The notes below the pieces were generated by a model that saw nothing but the letters and a program-made list of their open reading frames with translations, was not told where the DNA came from and searched no databases. A stretch of 64,000 bases of DNA, taken from the NCBI RefSeq assembly GCF_900142465.1, contig NZ_FRAX01000002.1, positions 124,001-188,000 of the forward strand. Reading direction: 5' to 3'. The stretch is from Fibrobacter sp. UWH6. GTDB taxonomy: Bacteria; Fibrobacterota; Fibrobacteria; Fibrobacterales; Fibrobacteraceae. Positions within the stretch are counted from its first letter, which is position 1. Each line of letters opens with the position of its first letter. Below, piece after piece: positions 43,843 through 59,555 of this stretch. The position numbers were made by a program, and so were the translations under genes.

Positions 43843-44796
43843 ATGTCAGGAAAAATCCGTTTCGCACCAAGCCCCACCGGCTACCTCCACGAAGGCCATC
43901 TGCTTTCGGCACTTTACGTCTGGGCCGCCGCCAAGAAATGGGACCTGCACATCCACCTGCGAATTGAAGATCACGACCAGGGAAGAGCCCGCCAAGCCTA
44001 CATCGACGGCATCCGCGAAGACCTGGAATGGCTCGGTTTTGAGCACCACAGCGAAAGCATCCAGAGCGAACGTCATCACATCTACCAGGCTGTCCTGGAA
44101 GAACTTTCCCAGAAGGACCTAGTGTACCCCTGCACCTGCAGCCGTAAGCAGCTGGAGGCCGAAAATCCCAGAAGCGAAACTGGAGAAATTATCTACCAGG
44201 GGAAATGCCGAATTTTAGATGAGAGACGAGAGGCGTTTGGCCACCTTCAGGTGGGAGACAAGGAACCGGAAAATAATGGGATGGGGCTTGCGCCCCATAG
44301 CCTCAGGGTTAGAATTTCTAACAAAATAATAAACTGGAAAGACTATCGTCTCGGAGACTTCAGCGAGAATCCGTCAGAACAATGCGGAGACTTTCCCATC
44401 CGGGATCGCGACGGTTTCTGGACTTACCAATTCGCCGTCTGCGTCGATGATTTGCATCAAGGAATAACCCATATCGTTCGAGGCGAAGACATCCGCAATT
44501 CCACGGCACGTCAGATTTACCTCTCAGAATTAATCGCCAACGTCTGTGCCGATTCCACCCGCATACAGATGCCCGCCTACAAGCGCCCCTTCTACCTGCA
44601 CCATGCCCTAATCGTGGATCCCAACGGCAAGAAGCTTTCCAAACGTGAGCTAGCTCACAGTATTCGGCAAGATAAGGAAGATGGCATAACCCCCGAAGCC
44701 CTCATTGGCCGAGTACTTTACAAGGCAGGCTTCCAAAATACCCCCACCCCACAGCCCCTAAATGCGGCAGTTGAACAAATAATCCATACTTTATAA
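43843..44796 (+). CDS. gluQ: Glutamyl-Q tRNA(Asp) synthetase
   Basis: A 317-residue class I glutamyl-tRNA-synthetase paralogue without an anticodon-binding domain. RFAPSPTGYLHEGHLLSALY is the HIGH-type motif, LRIEDHDQGRARQAYID the glutamate pocket, and GKKLSKRELA the KMSKS-equivalent. YPCTCSRKQLE with a later YQGKCR provides Zn ligands. It glutamylates queuosine on tRNA(Asp). Residues about 125-152 (starting DERREAFGHLQVG) are extra relative to the usual spacing between the Zn Cys and the LRVR strand, and are encoded by palindromic DNA. A TAnnTTTG box lies 4 nt upstream of the ATG. Confidence 0.9.
   Translation: MSGKIRFAPSPTGYLHEGHLLSALYVWAAAKKWDLHIHLRIEDHDQGRARQAYIDGIREDLEWLGFEHHSESIQSERHHIYQAVLEELSQKDLVYPCTCSRKQLEAENPRSETGEIIYQGKCRILDERREAFGHLQVGDKEPENNGMGLAPHSLRVRISNKIINWKDYRLGDFSENPSEQCGDFPIRDRDGFWTYQFAVCVDDLHQGITHIVRGEDIRNSTARQIYLSELIANVCADSTRIQMPAYKRPFYLHHALIVDPNGKKLSKRELAHSIRQDKEDGITPEALIGRVLYKAGFQNTPTPQPLNAAVEQIIHTL
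44216..44298 (+). repeat. Palindromic repeat DNA inserted inside gluQ
   Basis: In-frame segment starting GATGAGAGACGAGAGGCG. It contains two perfect inverted repeats: CCACCT/AGGTGG (44241-44254, 2-nt loop) and ATGGGGC/GCCCCAT (44281-44298, 4-nt loop). The first part resembles sequence in the intergenic region near 35050 on the minus strand. It encodes about 28 residues not expected in GluQ. Confidence 0.5.
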
Positions 44797-44841
44797 AGTT
44801 TACGTAATTTTTACGCGGGGGAAAAAATTTATATTCATAGT

Positions 44842-47800
44842 ATGGCTCAAGTGTCTCCTTCTGCAATCATATCGAAAATTCGTCAAGAAGCAGCTCTTTT
44901 TGATTCAAAAGATCGTTTACTGAACTTTTCTACCAAGGGTGACTTCCAATCTCCTCTTATTATGGAGGCTGGCGACCTTTTCTTCGAAAAGTGGAAAAAT
45001 TCCAATGGCCCGCTGCCGCTGGATTCCTTCTTCCCTGTGAGCGACAAATTTAGCGCACAGCAGAAAGCTGAAACCATTGAATCCGTCTGCACCGTCCTTA
45101 AAGAAAAAGACGAAGATTTCGGCAGATCGGACCTGTACCTTCTTCTGGGCTTCCTGAAGTGGGACGGAAACGCACTTGCACCAAGCCTTTTAATCCCCCT
45201 CGATGTCGACACGACAAAGAAGACTCTCTACATTTCCAACAGGACTCCTATTGAGAACGTAGTCCTTAGGGAACGCCTCAAGGATTCCGTCCCCCTGCCC
45301 AAGGCAGGCGATGCAATCATCAATGGGCAGTTCAGCCTCTTGCTGTACTTCTCCATGTTCGAAAAGTCCATCGCATCCATGAAGAGCTGGAAGTTCACTC
45401 GTCATGGTCTTTGCCTGGGATTTTTCAACACCGGTCGACTCCTCCTGAAAAACCGTTTTGAACAGGGATGGAACGACAAGAAAATTGACACAGCCCCGGT
45501 ACTTTCATCCCTTCTTCGAGAAGACGGCTTTAAGGTAAAGGAATCCATCTTCGAGGAAAAAGATTTCAATCAGGTATTCAATCCCTGTGAACATCACTTC
45601 CTCTATACCATCGATTCCCATACTAGCAAGGCAGCCATAGACGCCCTGGATCCAGAAGTAGAAGCCTACGCAATCCAGGCGCTGCCGGGCACCGCAAAGA
45701 TGAAGGTTGCCGCCAACATCGTAGCCGATTCTGTCGCCCAGGGGAAGAACGTCCTTGTGGTCAGCCGCAGAGCAACCACAGCCAGGGAATTTCTGAACAC
45801 ATGGAAACCGCCTTTCCGCACGTTCGCCAACGTTGACCGCAATGCTGTCGCCCAGGAACTCCATAAGGCCCGCAAGGATTTTTCAGACTACTATGACGCA
45901 GTCAACAAGCCCCTGCAGCCATCCGGCATCATGCTTTCGGGCCTTCTCAAGGAATTCATCAAGGCCAGAGCCCCCAAGCAGAAATTCCCGGAGACCATTT
46001 TCCAGGGAGTGCCCGAACTTAGCTTCGAAAGGTACGAAGCCCTTAAAAAAGATCTTGCAGAGCTGACTGAGCTATACTTCGAGAAAAACGGCATCGAAGC
46101 CCGTACAGCCTTCCAAGGCGTCAAGGTTCCTAGCCTCACACCAGAGCAGAAAAACTCTCTGGCCGATGAACTGAACCGCGCCGCCGAACGGGCCAGTGAA
46201 CTGGATACCATCCTCAAACGACTTCAGGAAGCAGGCCTGTTCCCCACAGGAATCTTCCTGGCCGGTCTCTCCGATATCCTTGAACTATTCAAAGACAACT
46301 TTAGCGAAAGCACACCCACCTACGACCAATGGCAGCTCCGTTCCAGCAACTGGGACGCCTACAGAGAAACATTGTCCATGCTGCCCGAAGCGGGCGACAA
46401 GTGGGTCCGCTACCGCCGTCAGACGTCCGACATTTACACCGACAATGCCGTAGACGAAAACATCCTTACCGCACGCGAAGACTTCGTTGAAAGTCAGAAG
46501 GCCACCCTAAAGGGTCTGTCAGACCGTTACCGTTCTTCTAGGCGCCAGCTCCTCCAGGTTCTCCGCAACCCCAAGGAAGTCCAGTCCGACGCCCAGCTTA
46601 TCGACCTGATAGACACCCTTCTGGAACTGCAGGACAACAAGAAGGCATACAAGGAATCAGCCGTTCTGGGCAATCACCTCCTCGGAAAAGATTGGCTCTA
46701 CGAACGTTCCAACTGGATTGAACTGAATACCAAGATTCAGTACTTGTACGACTTCCGCGACAAGCACAAGGACAATCCTCGTTTTGAACTGCTCCTGCAA
46801 ATTCTTGAACAGTGGAGTCTCTTCAAAGACCTACAGCCCAAGTTGGGCGATCTTTGCGAAGCCGTACGCAGTCTCCAGCAAGCCATCCGCAAGATTACCA
46901 AGGAAATGAACCTAGAGGAACCTCTAGAAAGCCAAAGCATTGAAAAGTGGTTGGGCACAATCAAATCCTGGAACAAGAACTGGGATAGCTTGGACACCCA
47001 TCTACAACTGTCTGCCCTTACAAAGAAAATCGCAGACTACAACTGCCCCAACCTTTCAGCATTCCTAAAGGATCCCAGCAAGGCCAATCGGGAAATCCCG
47101 CAGGCCGTAGCTCATCATTGGGCAGGCTCCCAGGTGCAGACAGCAACCAAGGTTTTCCCGGAACTGTTCTCCTTGAATCCCAAGGCACACGCCCAGAAAG
47201 GCAAGGAATACAGAGACATCCAGGACCGTTTCTGCAACGCGAACTTCAGGGAATTACACGACACTCTTCAAGCCTCGCCCGAAAGGTTGACATCCATCAG
47301 TCTCAGCGATTCTTTCTGCCTGCCTGAAGACAGACACTTTGACATCGCCATCATTCTTGATGCAGAATGCGTCTCTGTCGTAGAATCCATTCCTACCCTG
47401 CTCAGCGCAAACAAGATTATTCTTGTGGGTGACCCCCACTATCCCGCTCTGGAACCGCTCACTTACGACGCCTTCCAGGAACCGCCGATTTCTCATACGA
47501 CACTGTTCCACGATAGCATTCTGTCAGCCTCTCTTCGCCAGGGCATTTCTACTCGCGAACTGTGGTTCTCGACCCAGTATTCCGACGCGACCCTGGTAAG
47601 TTTCGCTAACCAGAAAATCTATAGCCGCGGCATCAGACAATTGCCTGTTCCCAGTCGCGAAAAATTCACCGGTATCAAGCTCAAGGTCGTCCAGAACAAG
47701 GTGAATGCAATCGCACAGGCAGCCATCCGCCATGCAGAAAAGAACCCCAGCAAGACCCTAGGTATCGTGGCATTCCATCAGACGACCTGCCACGAAATCG

Positions 47801-48954
47801 AGGAATGCATCAAGAATATGGTGGCGGCAGGTTCCGCAACGGCACGATTCTTCACACAGCAGAATCCGGATATCCGCTATTACGTCAAGACCCCGGAACG
47901 AGCCGCGGGACGTTTCCGCGACGTGATCCTTGTTTGCGCCGAATCCGAAGGCGTTACTGGAGTCAACGGCGACAACAAGATAGCCGTCTGTTCCACTCTG
48001 GCAAAGCACGAAACCCACGTCTACATTTCCGAAACGGATCTCGCCAAGCAGGGCAATGCCAAGCACAATCTCTTCTGGGACTGGATCACCTACCTGCAGG
48101 CCAAGGACTTCACCGAAAAGAACGACCTTCATACAGCAGGGTCCGACATTCACGATTCCATCGTCGACGCCCTTAAGAAAGAAAACTTCCAGGTCGAAGA
48201 CTCCTTTACCAAGGGAGGCATTCCTGTGGGACCGGTCGTGGCAGACGCCAATAATCCTAGCCGCTTCCTAGCACTCATCGAAGACGACTGCACTACGGAA
48301 CGTTTCCGTGAATCCGTGGAAGACCGCGACTATATCCGTCCTACCATCCTGAAACAGACTGGCTGGAAGGTCCTGGCGCTCTGGCTCCCCTTCTGGTACA
48401 TGGCAAATCAGGATGAAGTCAGCCACCTGGTAACAACGCTCGCCATCGAACAAAGTATCGCTCCGCCTCCCGCCAGCGACGAAGAACCGGAAGATGAAGA
48501 CGAACTGGAAATGCCCGTCAGCGAAGGACCGCAGGTGGTGGCCTACCAGGTGCAACACCCTAAGATCGAGGGCACGCCCCACGACAAGCCTATTGCTGAA
48601 CTGCCGGCTGCAGCCATTATCACCCAGCTGAAATTCTACGTAGATCACGAGGCACCGATTCACGAAGAGATCCTGATCCAGCGAATTCTGGAGCTGCATC
48701 ACGTGGATCGCGCAGGTCCTGTACTCCAAAAGGCACTGACCGAAGCCCTGAACCAAGGTCTTCAGAAAAAGCGCTTCGTCAAGACCGGCCCCTTCTACTA
48801 TTCCCTCAAGCCCCAGGAATTGGTTCCCCGCAACAGGAGCGGCCGCCCGGACTTCGAGAGGAACCTGGTTTTTGTTGGTCCTGAAGAACGAGCCCTGCTC
48901 CCCTCCAGCATGGACGAACACGCTATCAAACAGGCACTCGGCCTGCTAGTGTAA
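44842..48954 (+). CDS. DUF4011/DUF3320-family SF1 helicase homologue with degenerate catalytic motifs
   Basis: A 1370-residue protein laid out like the large SF1 helicases that have an N-terminal DUF4011 region (about 1-250), a split helicase core, a REase-like MTES_1575 segment and a C-terminal DUF3320 domain (about 1250-1330, PIHEEILIQRILELHHVDRAG). The helicase motifs are recognisable but broken. Walker A reads QALPGTAKMKVAAN (around 279-292), with Ala and Met in place of Gly and Ser/Thr. Walker B reads IILDAECV, lacking the DE pair. The arginine motifs read STQYSDATL and VCSTLAKHE. The REase-like IDLAV position reads VGPVV. A structural or regulatory pseudo-helicase is likely. A long coiled middle region spans about 430-780. 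A strong terminator follows. Confidence 0.82.
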   Translation: MAQVSPSAIISKIRQEAALFDSKDRLLNFSTKGDFQSPLIMEAGDLFFEKWKNSNGPLPLDSFFPVSDKFSAQQKAETIESVCTVLKEKDEDFGRSDLYLLLGFLKWDGNALAPSLLIPLDVDTTKKTLYISNRTPIENVVLRERLKDSVPLPKAGDAIINGQFSLLLYFSMFEKSIASMKSWKFTRHGLCLGFFNTGRLLLKNRFEQGWNDKKIDTAPVLSSLLREDGFKVKESIFEEKDFNQVFNPCEHHFLYTIDSHTSKAAIDALDPEVEAYAIQALPGTAKMKVAANIVADSVAQGKNVLVVSRRATTAREFLNTWKPPFRTFANVDRNAVAQELHKARKDFSDYYDAVNKPLQPSGIMLSGLLKEFIKARAPKQKFPETIFQGVPELSFERYEALKKDLAELTELYFEKNGIEARTAFQGVKVPSLTPEQKNSLADELNRAAERASELDTILKRLQEAGLFPTGIFLAGLSDILELFKDNFSESTPTYDQWQLRSSNWDAYRETLSMLPEAGDKWVRYRRQTSDIYTDNAVDENILTAREDFVESQKATLKGLSDRYRSSRRQLLQVLRNPKEVQSDAQLIDLIDTLLELQDNKKAYKESAVLGNHLLGKDWLYERSNWIELNTKIQYLYDFRDKHKDNPRFELLLQILEQWSLFKDLQPKLGDLCEAVRSLQQAIRKITKEMNLEEPLESQSIEKWLGTIKSWNKNWDSLDTHLQLSALTKKIADYNCPNLSAFLKDPSKANREIPQAVAHHWAGSQVQTATKVFPELFSLNPKAHAQKGKEYRDIQDRFCNANFRELHDTLQASPERLTSISLSDSFCLPEDRHFDIAIILDAECVSVVESIPTLLSANKIILVGDPHYPALEPLTYDAFQEPPISHTTLFHDSILSASLRQGISTRELWFSTQYSDATLVSFANQKIYSRGIRQLPVPSREKFTGIKLKVVQNKVNAIAQAAIRHAEKNPSKTLGIVAFHQTTCHEIEECIKNMVAAGSATARFFTQQNPDIRYYVKTPERAAGRFRDVILVCAESEGVTGVNGDNKIAVCSTLAKHETHVYISETDLAKQGNAKHNLFWDWITYLQAKDFTEKNDLHTAGSDIHDSIVDALKKENFQVEDSFTKGGIPVGPVVADANNPSRFLALIEDDCTTERFRESVEDRDYIRPTILKQTGWKVLALWLPFWYMANQDEVSHLVTTLAIEQSIAPPPASDEEPEDEDELEMPVSEGPQVVAYQVQHPKIEGTPHDKPIAELPAAAIITQLKFYVDHEAPIHEEILIQRILELHHVDRAGPVLQKALTEALNQGLQKKRFVKTGPFYYSLKPQELVPRNRSGRPDFERNLVFVGPEERALLPSSMDEHAIKQALGLLV

Positions 48955-48980
48955 AAAGTCTAACGGTTATACAAGAAAAA

Positions 48981-49010
48981 GGTACTGCGGACAACCGCAG
49001 TACCTTTTTT
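48981..49010. terminator. Strong bidirectional terminator
   Basis: Perfect 10-bp stem GGTACTGCGG/CCGCAGTACC (48981-48990 and 48995-49004) with a 4-nt loop, followed by six T and preceded by AAAAA. It serves the pseudo-helicase gene and the convergent SPOR gene. Confidence 0.95.
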
Positions 49011-49545: not shown

Positions 49546-52500
49546 TTAGTTGTTCTTCTTGAAGTCTTCCCATGTGCGATCAATGGGATATGCATTCTTA
49601 GACTTCTTGATACCGAACATGGAAGTCTTGTCCTTGCGGTTTTCCTTAGAACCGTTGATTCTGACGTAGGTATCGATCTTGGTGATGTATGCACCAGTAC
49701 CAACCAAGCGGCCATTATCAGAAGTCATGTTCCAACCGATGTAGTAGTTGGTGCCATGAGTAGTACAGTTCTTGCCAGCACCACCGAAGAAGTACTTCTT
49801 GTTGTGCTGGAAGTTCAGATCGTCATCGCAGTAGATCTTTGCAGAGGAACTTGCCACATAAGCACCCAGGTTGGTGAAGTATTCAACCTTGTAGTAGAAG
49901 TAGAAGTCACTCATATCAACGTCTTCGTTAGCAACCTTCTTCTTGTCGTACAGAGCCTTCATATCAGACTTGACCAAGTGACCCGGGATACCCCACTTGC
50001 TCTTGATGACCTGTTCGTTTCCGTCCAGAGAAGAGACAGGGATCGCGGTAATCGGGCTTGCGCAAGAATCAAGGAGACATTCAGCAGCATTGCCAGTGTA
50101 GGCGAAGTTCACATCGTAAACACCCACTTCGGCGTCACCGGTAACCAGCACCCAACGAGAGGGCAGACGCTTGGTTTCGTTGTAACCAGTGGGAGAGTTC
50201 CAGTGGTAATCTACGTCAAAGGAAGTACGCATTTCATTTGCACCGTAAGCGGTGGAATCCATGTTATCGCGCCAGATAAGCTTAGTCAGGTCGCCGCCCA
50301 GACGCAGGTAGTCACCAGCATGGGGAGACAGAGCGTTACTAGACGTCTTGTAAATCACGTCAATCTTGCCGTAGCCATCTTCACGAGAACTAGGAACAGG
50401 AACGATAGAAGAGGTCACCACAGTACCAGTCGGACCAGTTGCAGAAGCGAACTTGGCAACAGAGTCAAGGCTAGTTGCAGAATTCAGGTAGAAGTCGAAG
50501 GAAGTAGTGTTGGTCGGATCCAGCAAGGTCACCGGTTCAGAGAGAATCACGGTCAAGTTGTCGTAACCACTCAGTTCACCATCCTTATTCTTCTGGGAAA
50601 TCACGATTGCTTCGATAGGTACAGGAGCGATACGATCCACGATGTTGCCTTCAAAGCCCTGCTTGATGTGCTTACCATTATCATCGAAGGATGCATAAGA
50701 GTAAACCTTACCGGTACCAGCAGTCTTAATGCGGCTAGAAAGGGTCAGGCCGCCAACTTCGAGGCGATTGTCGCAATAGCCAGTAGCAGCATCGAGATTC
50801 AAGCAGGAATACTGAGTCTTATTGACGATAACATTGCAGTACTTAACGGAGTCAGCCTTAAGGGTAGACATACCGTCCTTGAAGGGATAAATCGTATCCG
50901 CAGCAACAGAATCCCACAAGATGCAGATCTGTTCCGGCAGAGAGTCCTTATGAATATTGCGGTTGAAGTAGATGGCGATAGAGTCACCCACACCGTCCAG
51001 ATATTCGCTAGCAACATAGTCGCTATAAATCTTCATAGCTTCAACAGGAGCACCCTTTACGTCGAAGATATCAGCAAACTGCGGCACAGGTACCGGCGGT
51101 TCACGGAAGTAAATCGGGTGGTAGTGAGCCATGATAGCATCGCTACCGTTACCAGAAATGGAGATTCTGGCCGGGTTGCTGTTAGCAGGATTTTCAGCAT
51201 CATAACGATAGGTCTTACATTCATTACCGCTGCAACGGATCTGCACTCTTGCAAAGCCATTTTCGAAGGGTTCAGATGCAGAAAGTACAAGACCTTCAGA
51301 TGCCACGCCGGCAGCCATAGTCAAGCCAACGTTACAATCGTCGCACTTGTAGTAGGCAAAGGAACCATCGGCCTGCTTGGAGGGCTTCAGAATAACCATG
51401 TTGAAGTCCTGATCGGTATCAGTCCAACGTTCTTCGAAACCAGGAGCGGCGGGATCATCACCAGTAATTTCCTTCCAGTTGGAATCCCTGGAATCTACGA
51501 AGGCAAGCTGCGGCAGGTAGAAGGTCAGAGACAGAGCCTGCTTACCAGATGCGGTAGAAATCTTGTAGGTTTCCATGGAGTAATTCATATCACCAAGGTC
51601 AACAGTGACATAGACGGTATCAATACCACCATCGGGGCCAAAGCTGCGAGCAGCACCCGGATCAATGGGGGTAAAGGAGCCATCTGCTTCCTTAACGAAG
51701 TACTGCAGGTAGTTCTTTCCATCAGCGCGATCAGTAGTAGACTTCAAGGTGTAGCTAACGCTTCTTGCGTCATTGGGCTTGATCAGCACGGAATCAGAGG
51801 ATACCTGGATTGCAGAAATATAAACCGGGACCAAATCGCTACCCATAGCGAAGTCAACCACTTCGTACTTGGACTTTTCAACACCCATGAAGCCACAGGT
51901 TGCCTTTGTACAGGGGTTTTCTGCTTCGGTAGTATCCAGGGCGGTAGCGTTATTGAAGACAACTTCCACTTCACCCTGAGACTTGTAAGTATAAACCTTG
52001 TTCTTGTCGCCATCGATATAGGCCCAGACAGTCCAGGTTCCCGGCGGCAGAGCAATCTGTTCGTAGGTGAACTTGGGCACAGCCGGGTTAGACAGGTCAA
52101 TACCCGGAATAGAAGCGTCATTGGCCAGAAGCTGTGCAGAAGAGAGATCGGCAGGGAACTTGGTACCAGCGACCAGATAGTACTGGAACTTGAAGCTCGT
52201 ACATTCAGACTTATTAACGAAGTCAGCACCGCAGCATTCGATGGCCTTATCGTCACCAGAAACTGCAGCAGCACAAGAACCTTCACCAGTCTGAGTATAG
52301 CACATCTGGTATTCAGGATTCTTGGGAGTGTAGTTTTCAGTCTTTTCCTTGGTAAGGGCAGTCTTCTGCTGGATGTACATATTGGTCTTGATACGAACGT
52401 TACTCATATCAGTACGACGGTCGCAGAAGAAGATGTCAATGTCATAGGTCTTGTTAGCAACGAGAGCACCCTGAGCACCAGTAAATTCATCCAGGTTCAC

Positions 52501-54198
52501 GTAACCAGGAGCGGCAAGGTGGGTACCACCCAGGTCCACTGCCAACTTGTTATCGATATAGACCCAAATGTCATCGTCACCGCGGAAGGAGAACTGCATA
52601 CCCGGACGGTAAACGAAGTGTGCGTGAGACTCGAAGCAGAACATCTGGTTGTTCATGCCAGAAATACGGGCATCCCAGGAAGTGTTGTCATAAACGTCGG
52701 GATTGGTACCGGAGTCGAATTCGCCGGCAGCCACAGGATAAAGGTCGATATAGGGGAGACCGCTCTTGGGTTCCAGGTCAGACCAGTCGGCCACGACACC
52801 CAGCTGAGCCTTAGCTGCAGCAGAAACCTTAGCCGGAGTACCGACACCGTATCTGACGTTGCCCAAACCCTTACGAGTAGCAGCAGCAGTAGCGCAAGTA
52901 CCAACACAAGTACCGAGAGTAACGGAGTCCTTAAGGTCATTCAAAATGGTAAATGCACCGGTGGGTTCGTTATAGCTATCGTATTCCCACATACCGTCAG
53001 AAGACTGGGTAAAGAGCACGTCGCGGCAATGCATAGCATTGACATTGGGAGTTTCGCGGAACATCACGTCAAAAGCTTCCTGACTTACAAAGCAGCCAGA
53101 AGCAGCATTGTAAGTCGGCTTCTTGGTCAGAGGATCCAGGAAGTCACCAACGATACCCTTGGTCACACCGATACAGGGAACAGTATTTGCAGCACCGCCA
53201 CCCGGGAAACCATAGGGAGCAGAAGCCACATAGCAACCGTTAGAAGCCACAGCAGGATAAGCATCGCAAGTGAATGCGCCATGGAGGGCGGCATCGGTAT
53301 CATAAAGGATTGCAGCCAAAGTATAGGAGCAGTTACCTTCGATTTCAGGGTCAACTACAGAGAAGAGCTTGCCATCCGGAGCTTCATCCGGGTCAGCAAT
53401 AAAGTAAAGTCTATCTACACCGTATGCATCGAAGAATGCTTCAACGTCAATGGCTTCAAGAGTGTTGTTCCAACCGTTGACACCGATTGCGTCGGCCAAC
53501 ATTTCGTCGGAATCCTTAAAGAGAACAAAAGAAGTGGGAAGATCTTCGTCCATCCACACAGCGTAGTACCATCCGCACATGGTGGGGTCAACCTTGAAGG
53601 GCTTACCACCAGCGTAGGTTCCATTGTCAGAATACATGGGAACGGAGGCCTTCCATTCTTCATCGTCCGGAACCAAGATGTAGAAGTACTTGATGTTGGG
53701 CTTTTTACCGTAAGAGATAAGAGTCTTGCCGGCCTGCTTGGGGTTTTCAAGAATGTAGACATCACCCTTGCTGTTGGGGCAGGCGAAGTCACGGTTGTTC
53801 ATGGGATAGTTGGGATCCTTGGCATTATCCTTCGGGATACCATTCCACTTGGCCGTCGTAATATAGCGGATCGTAGAATCCGACATCATCGTATACACGG
53901 TGAACGTGGAGTCGTAGGCTTCACCACCGATCTTGGAAAGGTCATATTCGTAATAACCAGTCGTTGCATTGTAGGTCATTACAGACGTAACCTTCTGCTT
54001 GTTATTCATAGCAGTGTAGAAAGTCACTGTCGGGGCATTATTAGCGCCCCATTCCAGAGGCGGCTGAAAATGCAGCGTACCGGAACAGCTAGACCAGGCG
54101 CTCTGCACTCCCATGAGCACCATACATGTACCCAGAATCCACTTAAAGGCTCCCGCGAGGAGAGTATTCTTCTTGTTCTTCATAGTATTATTATCCAT
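49546..54198 (-). CDS. Giant fibro-slime/PA14-domain surface protein
   Basis: About 1550 residues from the ATG at 54198, which follows GGAAGG by 10 nt; ATGs at 54219 and 54183 are alternatives. The signal peptide is KNTLLAGAFKWILGTCMVLM with cleavage near AWS. The fibro-slime/PA14-like core around residues 430-650 has FSFRGDDDIWVYIDNKLAVD, LGGTHLAAPGYVNLDEF and FFCDRRTDMSNVRI. A long beta-rich region with Ig/FlgD-like modules follows, ending near GRLVGTGAYITKIDTYVR; no type IX sorting tail is evident. Such proteins are outer-membrane proteins of Fibrobacter implicated in cellulose adhesion. The antisense phase is open for 1491 codons, so TTA/CTA/TCA codons are absent from nearly the whole gene, consistent with high expression. 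Confidence 0.88.
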   Translation of the reverse strand: MDNNTMKNKKNTLLAGAFKWILGTCMVLMGVQSAWSSCSGTLHFQPPLEWGANNAPTVTFYTAMNNKQKVTSVMTYNATTGYYEYDLSKIGGEAYDSTFTVYTMMSDSTIRYITTAKWNGIPKDNAKDPNYPMNNRDFACPNSKGDVYILENPKQAGKTLISYGKKPNIKYFYILVPDDEEWKASVPMYSDNGTYAGGKPFKVDPTMCGWYYAVWMDEDLPTSFVLFKDSDEMLADAIGVNGWNNTLEAIDVEAFFDAYGVDRLYFIADPDEAPDGKLFSVVDPEIEGNCSYTLAAILYDTDAALHGAFTCDAYPAVASNGCYVASAPYGFPGGGAANTVPCIGVTKGIVGDFLDPLTKKPTYNAASGCFVSQEAFDVMFRETPNVNAMHCRDVLFTQSSDGMWEYDSYNEPTGAFTILNDLKDSVTLGTCVGTCATAAATRKGLGNVRYGVGTPAKVSAAAKAQLGVVADWSDLEPKSGLPYIDLYPVAAGEFDSGTNPDVYDNTSWDARISGMNNQMFCFESHAHFVYRPGMQFSFRGDDDIWVYIDNKLAVDLGGTHLAAPGYVNLDEFTGAQGALVANKTYDIDIFFCDRRTDMSNVRIKTNMYIQQKTALTKEKTENYTPKNPEYQMCYTQTGEGSCAAAVSGDDKAIECCGADFVNKSECTSFKFQYYLVAGTKFPADLSSAQLLANDASIPGIDLSNPAVPKFTYEQIALPPGTWTVWAYIDGDKNKVYTYKSQGEVEVVFNNATALDTTEAENPCTKATCGFMGVEKSKYEVVDFAMGSDLVPVYISAIQVSSDSVLIKPNDARSVSYTLKSTTDRADGKNYLQYFVKEADGSFTPIDPGAARSFGPDGGIDTVYVTVDLGDMNYSMETYKISTASGKQALSLTFYLPQLAFVDSRDSNWKEITGDDPAAPGFEERWTDTDQDFNMVILKPSKQADGSFAYYKCDDCNVGLTMAAGVASEGLVLSASEPFENGFARVQIRCSGNECKTYRYDAENPANSNPARISISGNGSDAIMAHYHPIYFREPPVPVPQFADIFDVKGAPVEAMKIYSDYVASEYLDGVGDSIAIYFNRNIHKDSLPEQICILWDSVAADTIYPFKDGMSTLKADSVKYCNVIVNKTQYSCLNLDAATGYCDNRLEVGGLTLSSRIKTAGTGKVYSYASFDDNGKHIKQGFEGNIVDRIAPVPIEAIVISQKNKDGELSGYDNLTVILSEPVTLLDPTNTTSFDFYLNSATSLDSVAKFASATGPTGTVVTSSIVPVPSSREDGYGKIDVIYKTSSNALSPHAGDYLRLGGDLTKLIWRDNMDSTAYGANEMRTSFDVDYHWNSPTGYNETKRLPSRWVLVTGDAEVGVYDVNFAYTGNAAECLLDSCASPITAIPVSSLDGNEQVIKSKWGIPGHLVKSDMKALYDKKKVANEDVDMSDFYFYYKVEYFTNLGAYVASSSAKIYCDDDLNFQHNKKYFFGGAGKNCTTHGTNYYIGWNMTSDNGRLVGTGAYITKIDTYVRINGSKENRKDKTSMFGIKKSKNAYPIDRTWEDFKKNN
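53150..53259 (-). repeat. 110-bp tract identical to 58546-58655 (fibro-slime copy 1)
   Basis: Every one of 110 bases matches the copy in the second fibro-slime gene, including silent positions, although the flanks diverge. It encodes the segment from SNGCYVASAPYGFPGGGAAN to the KGIV following PCIGVT. Confidence 0.95.
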
Positions 54199-54252
54199 CA
54201 ATGGTTTTCCTTCCAACATTCTTTGGCATAACGGAAAGACCGGCCATTCCGA

Positions 54253-56909: not shown

Positions 56910-59555
56910 TTACTTGAACTTCACAATTTCATGGTGACGGCCGGAACGGACAACGAAGGTACCCTTGCTAGGAGCGACCACCTTAGTCTCGCTCGTTGAA
57001 ACGGTCCCAGAAGCTACAACAGATCCAAGCATATCCATCACCTCGTAGGATTTGGGCTGAGATGCGATCTCTTCGTTAAAGACAATCACGAAAGTAAAGG
57101 GAGCAACCATCTTTACGCGGAATGTAGGTTCAGCATAATTGCGGTCTTCATCATCCTTTTCATCACTGCTGTCATTCTTTCCATTTTCCTTAGAACTGGA
57201 GCTGGAAGGATCGACATTGCCGTTACCGTTTTCTGCTCCTTCAGGATTCTTACCATCTTCGGTAGCAGAAGCAGATGAACCGGCAACAGGATTTTCTTCG
57301 GAACCGCCATTGCTGTTAGAAGAGCCGTCCAATTCGCCTCCGTTGGAACCACTATCGGAGCTGCTGATTTCTTCTTCGAAGGTTCCATTTTCATCAATGG
57401 TAAAGGTCATGATCTTCTTTGTAGATTTATTGATTTCAATAAAGATGCTCCAACGGCCGGGAGCCAGCTTCATCTTGTCATAATAGATCATAGGTACCGA
57501 GGGATCAGTCAGATCAATGCCACCCACGTTCACTTCACCGGCAGTCAACATCTTTGCGGTAGACTTATCCAGGGTTCCTCCGCTTACTAGATAATAAGAC
57601 GGAGTCAATCCCAGGGAAGCAAGTTCATTACCGCAAGTTTCTACGTTCTCACCACCATTCAGGGCAGCAGCGCAGGATCCGCCATTGCTTACGCTATAGC
57701 ATACACCATAAGTGTAAGTTCCGCTGGCAGTTTTTTTCTTGCTCACCGTTAGACTCTTCTTCTGCTGAAGATACATATTGGTACTGATACGGATGTTACT
57801 CATATCGGTTCGACGGTCACAGAAGAAGATGTCGATATCGTAAGTTTTTCCAGCAACGAGATTACCCTGAGCCCCCTTAAATTCATCCAGGTTTACATAA
57901 CCAGGAGCAGCCATATGGGTTCCGCCCAAGTCAACAGCGAGTCGGTTGTCGATGAACACCCAGATATCATCATCGCCGCGGAAGGAGAACTGCATACCGG
58001 GGCGATAAACGAAGTGGGCATGAGACTCAAAGCAGAAGTGCTGATTTCCCTTGCTCTTTATGCGCAAATCCCAAGACAGATTGTCGTACACGTCAGGATT
58101 CGTTCCCGAATCAAACTCACCAGAAGCCGTGGGGTACAGGTCAATATACGGAAGCCCCGTCGTAGGTTCGATGTCGGCCCAGTTTTCCACTTTACCCAAC
58201 AACGAAATTGCAGCGCTAGAAACATAGCTCAGTGAACCAGCACCATATCTCACATTTCCGAGTACGTTACGGAGTGTAGCGGCAGTGGCGCAGGTACCAG
58301 TACATACCCCGGCAGCAACAGAATCCTGAAGGTCATTCAAAATGGTAAATGCGCCAGTAGGTTCATTCTGACTGTCATATTCCCACTTGCCGTCTGCTGT
58401 CTGAGAAAAGGGCACATCGCGACAATGCACGGAATTAACGCCCGGAGTTTCGCGGAACATCACGTCAAAGGCTTCCTTACTGGGGAAACAGCCACTGGCA
58501 GGATTATAAGTCGGCTTCTTGGTAACAGGATCCAGATTTTCATTGACGATACCCTTGGTCACACCGATACAGGGAACAGTATTTGCAGCACCGCCACCCG
58601 GGAAACCATAGGGAGCAGAAGCCACATAGCAACCGTTAGAAGCCACAGCAGGATAGGCATCACAGGTAAAGGAACCATGGAGAGATGCATCGGTATCATA
58701 GAGAACAGCCGCCATGGAATAGGTACAGTTACCCTCAATTTCAGGATCATTCAAGGAAATCACCTTGCCATCGGGGGATTCGCCCGGATCAGCAATAAAG
58801 AACAGTTCGTCAACGCCATAGCCTTCATACAATGCGGCAGAAGCGATAGGAGTCAACTTAGAAGCGCCCCATCCATCAATACCAATTGCATCATCAAGAG
58901 ATTCATCTTCAGCCTTGAAGAAAATCAGATTTTCAGGCAGTTCTTCATCCATCCACACTGCGTAATACCAGCCGCACATATCGGGAGCGACCTTCAGATA
59001 CTGGCGGTTTTTATAGGTACCATCACCGGAATACATGGGAACGGAAGCCTTCCACTCTTCATCGTCGGGTACAAGGACATAGAAGTACTTGATATCAGGC
59101 TTTTGGGAAGAAATCAAAGTAGATCCAGGCTTCTTGGGATTTTCCATCACATAGACATCGCCGTCATCTGTCGGACAGGGAATATCAAGATGGCTAGGAA
59201 TAAGCATAGAATACATAGATTCGTAGCCGTTCCATTTAGACGCAAGAACATAATACAGTTCAGTACGGCCATAAGCAGAAGATCCCGAATTGACCTTAAC
59301 CATATGCTGGATACCAAACTTTTCCTCAGGGCTCGAATACACGCTTTGATTTACCTTAATATCATAAAAACCGGTAGCCGAATTGAACATGTCTTCTGTA
59401 ATGGCAAAAGTCTTGTTCAAAATGACGACATCCATTGCGCCAGACCATTCAGCCGGTTTCTGAAAATGAATTGTTCCAGAACATGTGGCGAAAGCACTTT
59501 CGGAGCAAGCAAAAATCGCAGCGACACTCAGCAAACTTTTAATAAACTTCTTCAT
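56910..59555 (-). CDS. Fibro-slime/PA14-domain protein with C-terminal sorting tail
   Basis: An 881-residue secreted protein. The signal peptide is MKKFIKSLLSVAAIFACSES, with cleavage near AFA. The N-terminal region and fibro-slime core parallel the protein at 49546, with FSFRGDDDIWVFIDNRLAVD and FFCDRRTDMSNIRI around residues 500-610. A Ser/Gly/Asn/Glu-rich linker (about 745-805) precedes a C-terminal module ending GTFVVRSGRHHEIVKFK. This resembles type IX (Por) secretion sorting domains. Surface display and adhesion to plant polysaccharide are inferred from the family. GGAGG lies 6 nt before the ATG. It follows the outer-membrane barrel gene by 12 nt, in the operon 61248-56910. Confidence 0.9.
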   Translation of the reverse strand: MKKFIKSLLSVAAIFACSESAFATCSGTIHFQKPAEWSGAMDVVILNKTFAITEDMFNSATGFYDIKVNQSVYSSPEEKFGIQHMVKVNSGSSAYGRTELYYVLASKWNGYESMYSMLIPSHLDIPCPTDDGDVYVMENPKKPGSTLISSQKPDIKYFYVLVPDDEEWKASVPMYSGDGTYKNRQYLKVAPDMCGWYYAVWMDEELPENLIFFKAEDESLDDAIGIDGWGASKLTPIASAALYEGYGVDELFFIADPGESPDGKVISLNDPEIEGNCTYSMAAVLYDTDASLHGSFTCDAYPAVASNGCYVASAPYGFPGGGAANTVPCIGVTKGIVNENLDPVTKKPTYNPASGCFPSKEAFDVMFRETPGVNSVHCRDVPFSQTADGKWEYDSQNEPTGAFTILNDLQDSVAAGVCTGTCATAATLRNVLGNVRYGAGSLSYVSSAAISLLGKVENWADIEPTTGLPYIDLYPTASGEFDSGTNPDVYDNLSWDLRIKSKGNQHFCFESHAHFVYRPGMQFSFRGDDDIWVFIDNRLAVDLGGTHMAAPGYVNLDEFKGAQGNLVAGKTYDIDIFFCDRRTDMSNIRISTNMYLQQKKSLTVSKKKTASGTYTYGVCYSVSNGGSCAAALNGGENVETCGNELASLGLTPSYYLVSGGTLDKSTAKMLTAGEVNVGGIDLTDPSVPMIYYDKMKLAPGRWSIFIEINKSTKKIMTFTIDENGTFEEEISSSDSGSNGGELDGSSNSNGGSEENPVAGSSASATEDGKNPEGAENGNGNVDPSSSSSKENGKNDSSDEKDDEDRNYAEPTFRVKMVAPFTFVIVFNEEIASQPKSYEVMDMLGSVVASGTVSTSETKVVAPSKGTFVVRSGRHHEIVKFK
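58546..58655 (-). repeat. 110-bp tract identical to 53150-53259 (fibro-slime copy 2)
   Basis: Perfect match over 110 bases to the first fibro-slime gene. The bases immediately outside differ at both ends, and surrounding protein sequence is similar but not identical, which points to local gene conversion. Confidence 0.95.

Follow-up and report, generated by a model that had tools for sequence, protein, structure and literature searches.

The closest named relatives of the protein considered here are PDC-S37, ProA and Hhe, families of anti-phage or candidate anti-phage proteins that have a DUF4011-like N-terminus, an SF1B helicase core split by an insertion, an MTES_1575/Vsr-like REase domain and a DUF3320 domain. 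We found no paper on the combination of DUF4011 and DUF3320 or on PDC-S37. RecC, as described in PMC1185551, contains an inactivated nuclease-like domain, and it handles DNA by means of nuclease-like and helicase-like domains that are inactive; AddB, in the account of PMC4824097, reads Chi with a helicase-like domain. In the window analysed here (the whole stretch of 64,000 nucleotides from Fibrobacter sp. UWH6), one gene encodes a protein with the same layout as PDC-S37, ProA and Hhe, and its catalytic motifs are broken. The locus comprises:

43843..44796, plus strand: gluQRS (glutamyl-Q tRNA-Asp synthetase); best NCBIfam match GluQRS, 226 bits, under the cut-offs of 256-277
44830..44835, plus strand: TATATT, resembling a -10 element and separated from the ATG by 6 nt, present in 72/72 orthologues
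44842..48954, plus strand: pseudo-helicase-nuclease gene; open frame of 1370 aa, with orthologues and a dN/dS of 0.03-0.09
48975..49010, no strand assigned: terminator hairpin with a stem of 16 bp, located where two genes converge (-25 kcal/mol, z -9.9)

The open frame that the initial annotation had reported at this position is indeed there and specifies a product of about 155 kDa. Pfam recognises the MTES_1575 REase domain (38.8 bits, cut-off 38.2) and DUF3320 (27.8 bits, cut-off 25), while DUF4011 at residues 75-146 scores 16.6 bits, under its cut-off of 22.2. The PADLOC model for PDC-S37 gives 408 bits, with residues 332-810 as the best-scoring stretch, and the equivalog models for ProA (NF058533, 286 bits against a cut-off of 1500) and Hhe (NF042953, 123 bits against 2000) exclude the protein from either family. 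When a profile of 56 orthologues was aligned to the intact homologues with hhalign, residues 90-1350 were matched over 1213 columns (probability 100, E 1.5e-47). Homology thus spans the whole domain layout and places the protein in the DUF4011-helicase-Vsr superfamily of PDC-S37 type, which bears out the earlier description of a full-length DUF4011/DUF3320 helicase homologue. Its parts, all on the plus strand, are:

44842..45621: N-terminal DUF4011-like region, residues 1-260; sub-threshold Pfam DUF4011, aligning to intact homologues from residue 90
45622..45876: first part of RecA1, residues 261-345, with a dead Walker A (Gly in 0/74)
45679-45702: dead Walker A, ALPGTAKM, residues 280-287
45877..47301: large helical insertion, residues 346-820, all-helical in the model
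47302..48126: end of RecA1 plus RecA2, residues 821-1095; dead motifs, UPF1/IGHMBP2-like fold
47356-47370: dead Walker B, LDAEC, residues 839-843
47572-47586: TQYSD, residues 911-915
47989-48009: CSTLAKH, residues 1050-1056
48154..48456: MTES_1575/Vsr-like REase domain, residues 1105-1205
48226-48240: VGPVV at the position of the PD motif, residues 1129-1133
48277-48291: IEDDC, residues 1146-1150
48607..48951: DUF3320 C-terminal domain, residues 1256-1370

The initial annotation held that almost every catalytic motif is broken, and all five of the altered stretches that it named (ALPGTAKM, LDAEC, TQYSD, CSTLAKH and VGPVV) lie at the motifs to which it had assigned them; IEDD and the RDY...GW framework (residues 1162-1175) survive, as it had said. 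Retention counts for 72-74 sequences of the pseudo-enzyme clade, scored against four intact homologues (L061, L062, L063 and L122), generalise the claim; identity to these homologues is only 15-25%, so that single columns may be misaligned, although the alignment is anchored on either side of each motif block. Neither the first nor the second Gly of Walker A is retained in any of 74 sequences, and its Ser/Thr position is kept in 3. The Walker B Asp is lost throughout (Leu in 73), as is the Glu (Asp in all 74). Motif III Gln persists in 7/74 and motif IV Arg in 1/74, whereas motif V Gln and motif VI Arg are found in 0/73. The Walker A, Walker B and arginine motifs of a catalytic SF1B helicase are therefore missing, their key residues being retained in 0-4% of sequences except for the Walker A Lys. 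In the PD-(D/E)XK/Vsr-like nuclease domain, which the profile still recognises, the catalytic Asp of the first motif is absent (0/72) and the E-x-D is retained (72/72), together with Arg1166, Trp1175, Trp1181 and Trp1185. The loss is ancestral to the sampled clade: the ATPase and nuclease motifs disappeared before the carrier genera diverged.

Because the Walker A Lys (K286, 58/74 or 78%) and the nuclease E-x-D survive, binding of ATP or metal without turnover is possible. One might go further and suppose that the residual P-loop binds nucleotide without hydrolysing it and thereby drives a conformational change, so that the protein would serve as a sensor and not simply as a passive scaffold. 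The retention of P282-G283 (73-74/74) and of K286 and the invariance of D840 among the 74 orthologues point in this direction, but the Lys has been replaced in several branches (by Trp in one genus clade and by Phe, Ala, Leu, Gly or Arg elsewhere) that show no sign of gene decay, and neither the Gly and Ser/Thr of Walker A nor the two arginine motifs remain, their positions varying freely. We therefore regard such a switch as unlikely. In contrast to the lost ATP-side residues, K1016 and R1026-D1027 of motif V (the latter in 73/73) are retained, a pattern consistent with retained nucleic-acid contacts, as is the pI of 10 predicted for residues 261-345; the pI of 5.8 for the protein as a whole tells against such a role. 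Moreover, the clade has 39 invariant positions at which each of the four intact homologues carries a different residue. They include Trp 497, 504, 521 and 760 of the helical insertion, and we read them as constraint for a new role.

The structure prediction proposed in the initial annotation gave a confident UPF1/IGHMBP2-like helicase fold. An AlphaFold model covering residues 171-1370 (pLDDT 86.4) matched IGHMBP2 over 367 residues (Z 19.4, 3.2 A) and, further, UPF1, Senataxin, UvrD and Dna2. The model contains the two-RecA, UPF1-like arrangement of SF1B helicases, and matches of this type indicate that the helicase fold has survived the loss of its motifs; the pseudo-enzyme, as modelled, keeps an SF1B fold. 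These matches barely probe the REase and DUF3320 domains, which were judged from the same model and from Pfam; residues 1080-1370 folded as a single sequence reached a pLDDT of 38. The DUF3320 domain is the best-conserved part across the family, with 54% identity to distant genera.

How old is this loss, and is the gene maintained? Orthologues were sought in 168 genomes of the phylum, including 80 of the same genus and 31 others of the family. A single-copy orthologue occurs in 78 of the 80 (the genome under study also has one copy); the two that lack it have completeness values of 65% and 71%. Outside the genus, 15 of the 31 others carry it, at 29-38% identity. The gene is absent from the remaining 16, one of which is 94% complete and belongs to a genus that otherwise carries it (G165). 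A sixteenth family match (G122) was rejected as an orthologue, being a fragment with an intact GPPGTGKS. All named records with an orthologue are Fibrobacter, F. intestinalis included. Genome contigs scanned with the single protein as query gave no match; scanned with the alignment, they gave only Fibrobacteraceae and one distant intact homologue. In the tree, the pseudo-enzymes form a single clade against the four intact outgroup homologues (SH-aLRT 100), whose long branches limit the reading to this: no intact protein lies inside the clade. The same residues are thus changed in orthologues across the genus, as the initial annotation had asked, and the gene is ancient and vertically inherited: within the genus it belongs to the core, occurs once per genome and keeps the same locus.

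Whole-gene dN/dS (Nei-Gojobori) between close species pairs is 0.03-0.09 and is low in every domain, dead ones included, which implies that the dead domains are maintained; the exceptions, N-terminal values in pairs with the frame-disrupted G059, are an alignment artefact. For the adjacent gluQRS the value is 0.08-0.17, with largely the same pairs compared, and purifying selection on the pseudo-enzyme is thus strong, and tighter than on its neighbour. Among about 77 copies, two are frame-disrupted in draft assemblies, one by an in-frame TAG (G028, L036) and one by a split frame (G059, L047); these lesions are either real or assembly errors. Motif loss together with two disrupted copies is what a decaying pseudogene or a chance open frame might leave behind, yet the protein is conserved to about 30% identity between genera, and orthologue distribution, dN/dS and the shared motif losses refute decay, to which we attach next to no probability. 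The combination that the initial annotation had named as fatal to its proposal, intact-motif orthologues with relaxed selection, did not occur; instead, genus-wide orthologues, shared losses and a dN/dS far below 1 uphold selection for a non-catalytic role. Catalytic residues have been lost in a gene under purifying selection, and we conclude that it very probably encodes a conserved, functional pseudo-enzyme.

The genomic setting might hint at a partner. In 72 of 74 loci the gene is preceded by gluQRS, in the same orientation and as a rule at a distance of 10-70 nt, even where the other neighbours differ, as they do between genera. It is conceivable that the pseudo-enzyme is a translation- or tRNA-linked factor that works with GluQRS. 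However, it is intact where gluQRS has moved elsewhere in the genome (L049) or is missing (L139), and genera without it have gluQRS followed by other genes. It also possesses a conserved promoter-like box of its own, and the adjacency may be merely ancestral, so that we consider a partnership improbable. The GluQRS tree is poorly resolved, and gain or loss of the pseudo-enzyme cannot be placed on it. The box, TATATT, stands 6-9 nt before the ATG in 72/72 testable orthologues (spacer of 6 nt in 62), as compared to only 21 of 81 gluQRS starts, and is probably the promoter of a leaderless mRNA. TATATT-N6-ATG occurs 67 times in the genome under study against 18 for the reversed control (about 3.7-fold), and a frame of at least 80 codons follows in 27 of the 30 cases inspected, versus 22% for any ATG; leaderless promoters are thus probably widespread in Fibrobacter. 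Starts of this kind include, by eye, UvrA-, MutL- and DnaE-like frames. A sigma-70 consensus scan returned no promoter and no plus-strand terminator at the gene ends; box and hairpin are nevertheless evident by comparison and folding. The strong terminator of the initial annotation is a real hairpin, and the transcript would end there, at 48975-49010. Further downstream, fibro-slime domain proteins are encoded at 49546-54219 and 56910-59555, and many Fibrobacter loci share this pair.

Defence genes usually have a sporadic distribution. With anti-phage or candidate anti-phage proteins as its closest named relatives, the pseudo-enzyme might have an immune role, descending from a ProA- or Hhe-type protein and acting as a sensor, guard or inhibitor. 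Against this stand its distribution, which is not that of a sporadic, mobile gene (78/80 genus genomes), its fixed locus and its low dN/dS; a pattern-based scan of viral contigs found no relatives. The suggestion that the protein belongs to defence as usually understood thus finds no support in a slowly evolving core gene that occupies one locus and no sporadic island. The initial annotation had also proposed an inhibitor of an active paralogue. Among 61 genomes (the present one and 60 of its genus), full-length intact PDC-S37/ProA-like homologues were found in only three (G006, G033 and G047; 1215-1407 bits to PDC-S37) and the search found none in the genome under study; because intact copies are sporadic and the dead copy is universal, inhibition is disfavoured, and an immune role as a whole seems to us doubtful. 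Among intact relatives, ProA-type proteins occur in two Fibrobacter genomes (L061:4008-9956, 1999 bits; L062:4131-9998, 2043 bits; NCBIfam cut-off 1500), and predicted DNA methyltransferases lie, by eye, near the L061 and L063 homologues. L161:1342-5958 (G049) encodes a helicase of 1538 aa that has a Vsr-like end and in which GPPGTGKT, DEASQ and QGDERD are intact; the genes beside it resemble, by eye, those of a Tn7-like transposase and an ATPase of TnsC type.

How might a doubly dead helicase-nuclease be of use? The best overall explanation, which we regard as probable, is that of an ancient dead helicase-nuclease kept as a non-catalytic platform that binds nucleic acid. We envision a scenario whereby the protein neither hydrolyses ATP nor cuts DNA and forms a rigid multi-domain platform, in which the helicase cleft and DUF3320 would contact nucleic acid and the big helical insertion would bind partner proteins. 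As in RecC, the dead helicase and nuclease domains might serve to thread DNA, to read out a signal and to keep active subunits in place. This specific mechanism is plausible at best, and we put it forward with reserve. The scaffold or nucleic-acid sensor of the initial annotation thus stands as the likeliest kind of role, albeit as one that we infer. A corollary, offered more tentatively still, is that an anti-phage-type helicase-nuclease may have been domesticated in Fibrobacteraceae into a RecC-like housekeeping platform, independently of the RecBCD/AddAB lineage. If so, this would be a second independent origin of the RecC-like dead-platform design. Whichever the mechanism, a core protein of a genus that is prominent in rumen and gut, with the build of an immune enzyme minus catalysis, offers a clean natural test of what giant helicase-nucleases do beyond catalysis and bears on how defence proteins may be domesticated.

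Compared with known systems, the pseudo-enzyme departs from PDC-S37, ProA and Hhe in its broken motifs and in being a core gene rather than a sporadic one, and it is devoid of the long N-terminal extension of ProA. It should not be mistaken for RecC or a RecC substitute, a candidate that we rejected: RecC models are not among its NCBIfam matches, and the same genome carries a separate RecC-RecB-RecD-like operon on contig C2 (L166:4433-14056), with every subunit under its equivalog cut-off. A PDDEXK_1 search of this genome gave no match even though RecB is present, and is therefore uninformative. The PriA pseudohelicase of Deinococcus radiodurans, as presented in PMC4504706, is likewise a bacterial core protein kept after loss of helicase motifs, but it belongs to a different helicase superfamily and has neither nuclease nor DUF4011/DUF3320 domains. 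A DUF4011 gene flanking the hotspot cDHS1 in P. aeruginosa is, in the description of PMC10250203, also a fixed core gene. RecC and AddB, as portrayed in PMC1185551 and PMC4824097, are large relatives of helicase-nucleases that have dead helicase and/or nuclease sites and serve as DNA platforms; they stem from the SF1A RecBCD lineage, unlike the SF1B pseudo-enzyme, and RecC, along with AddB, is the best-documented parallel to the platform proposed here.
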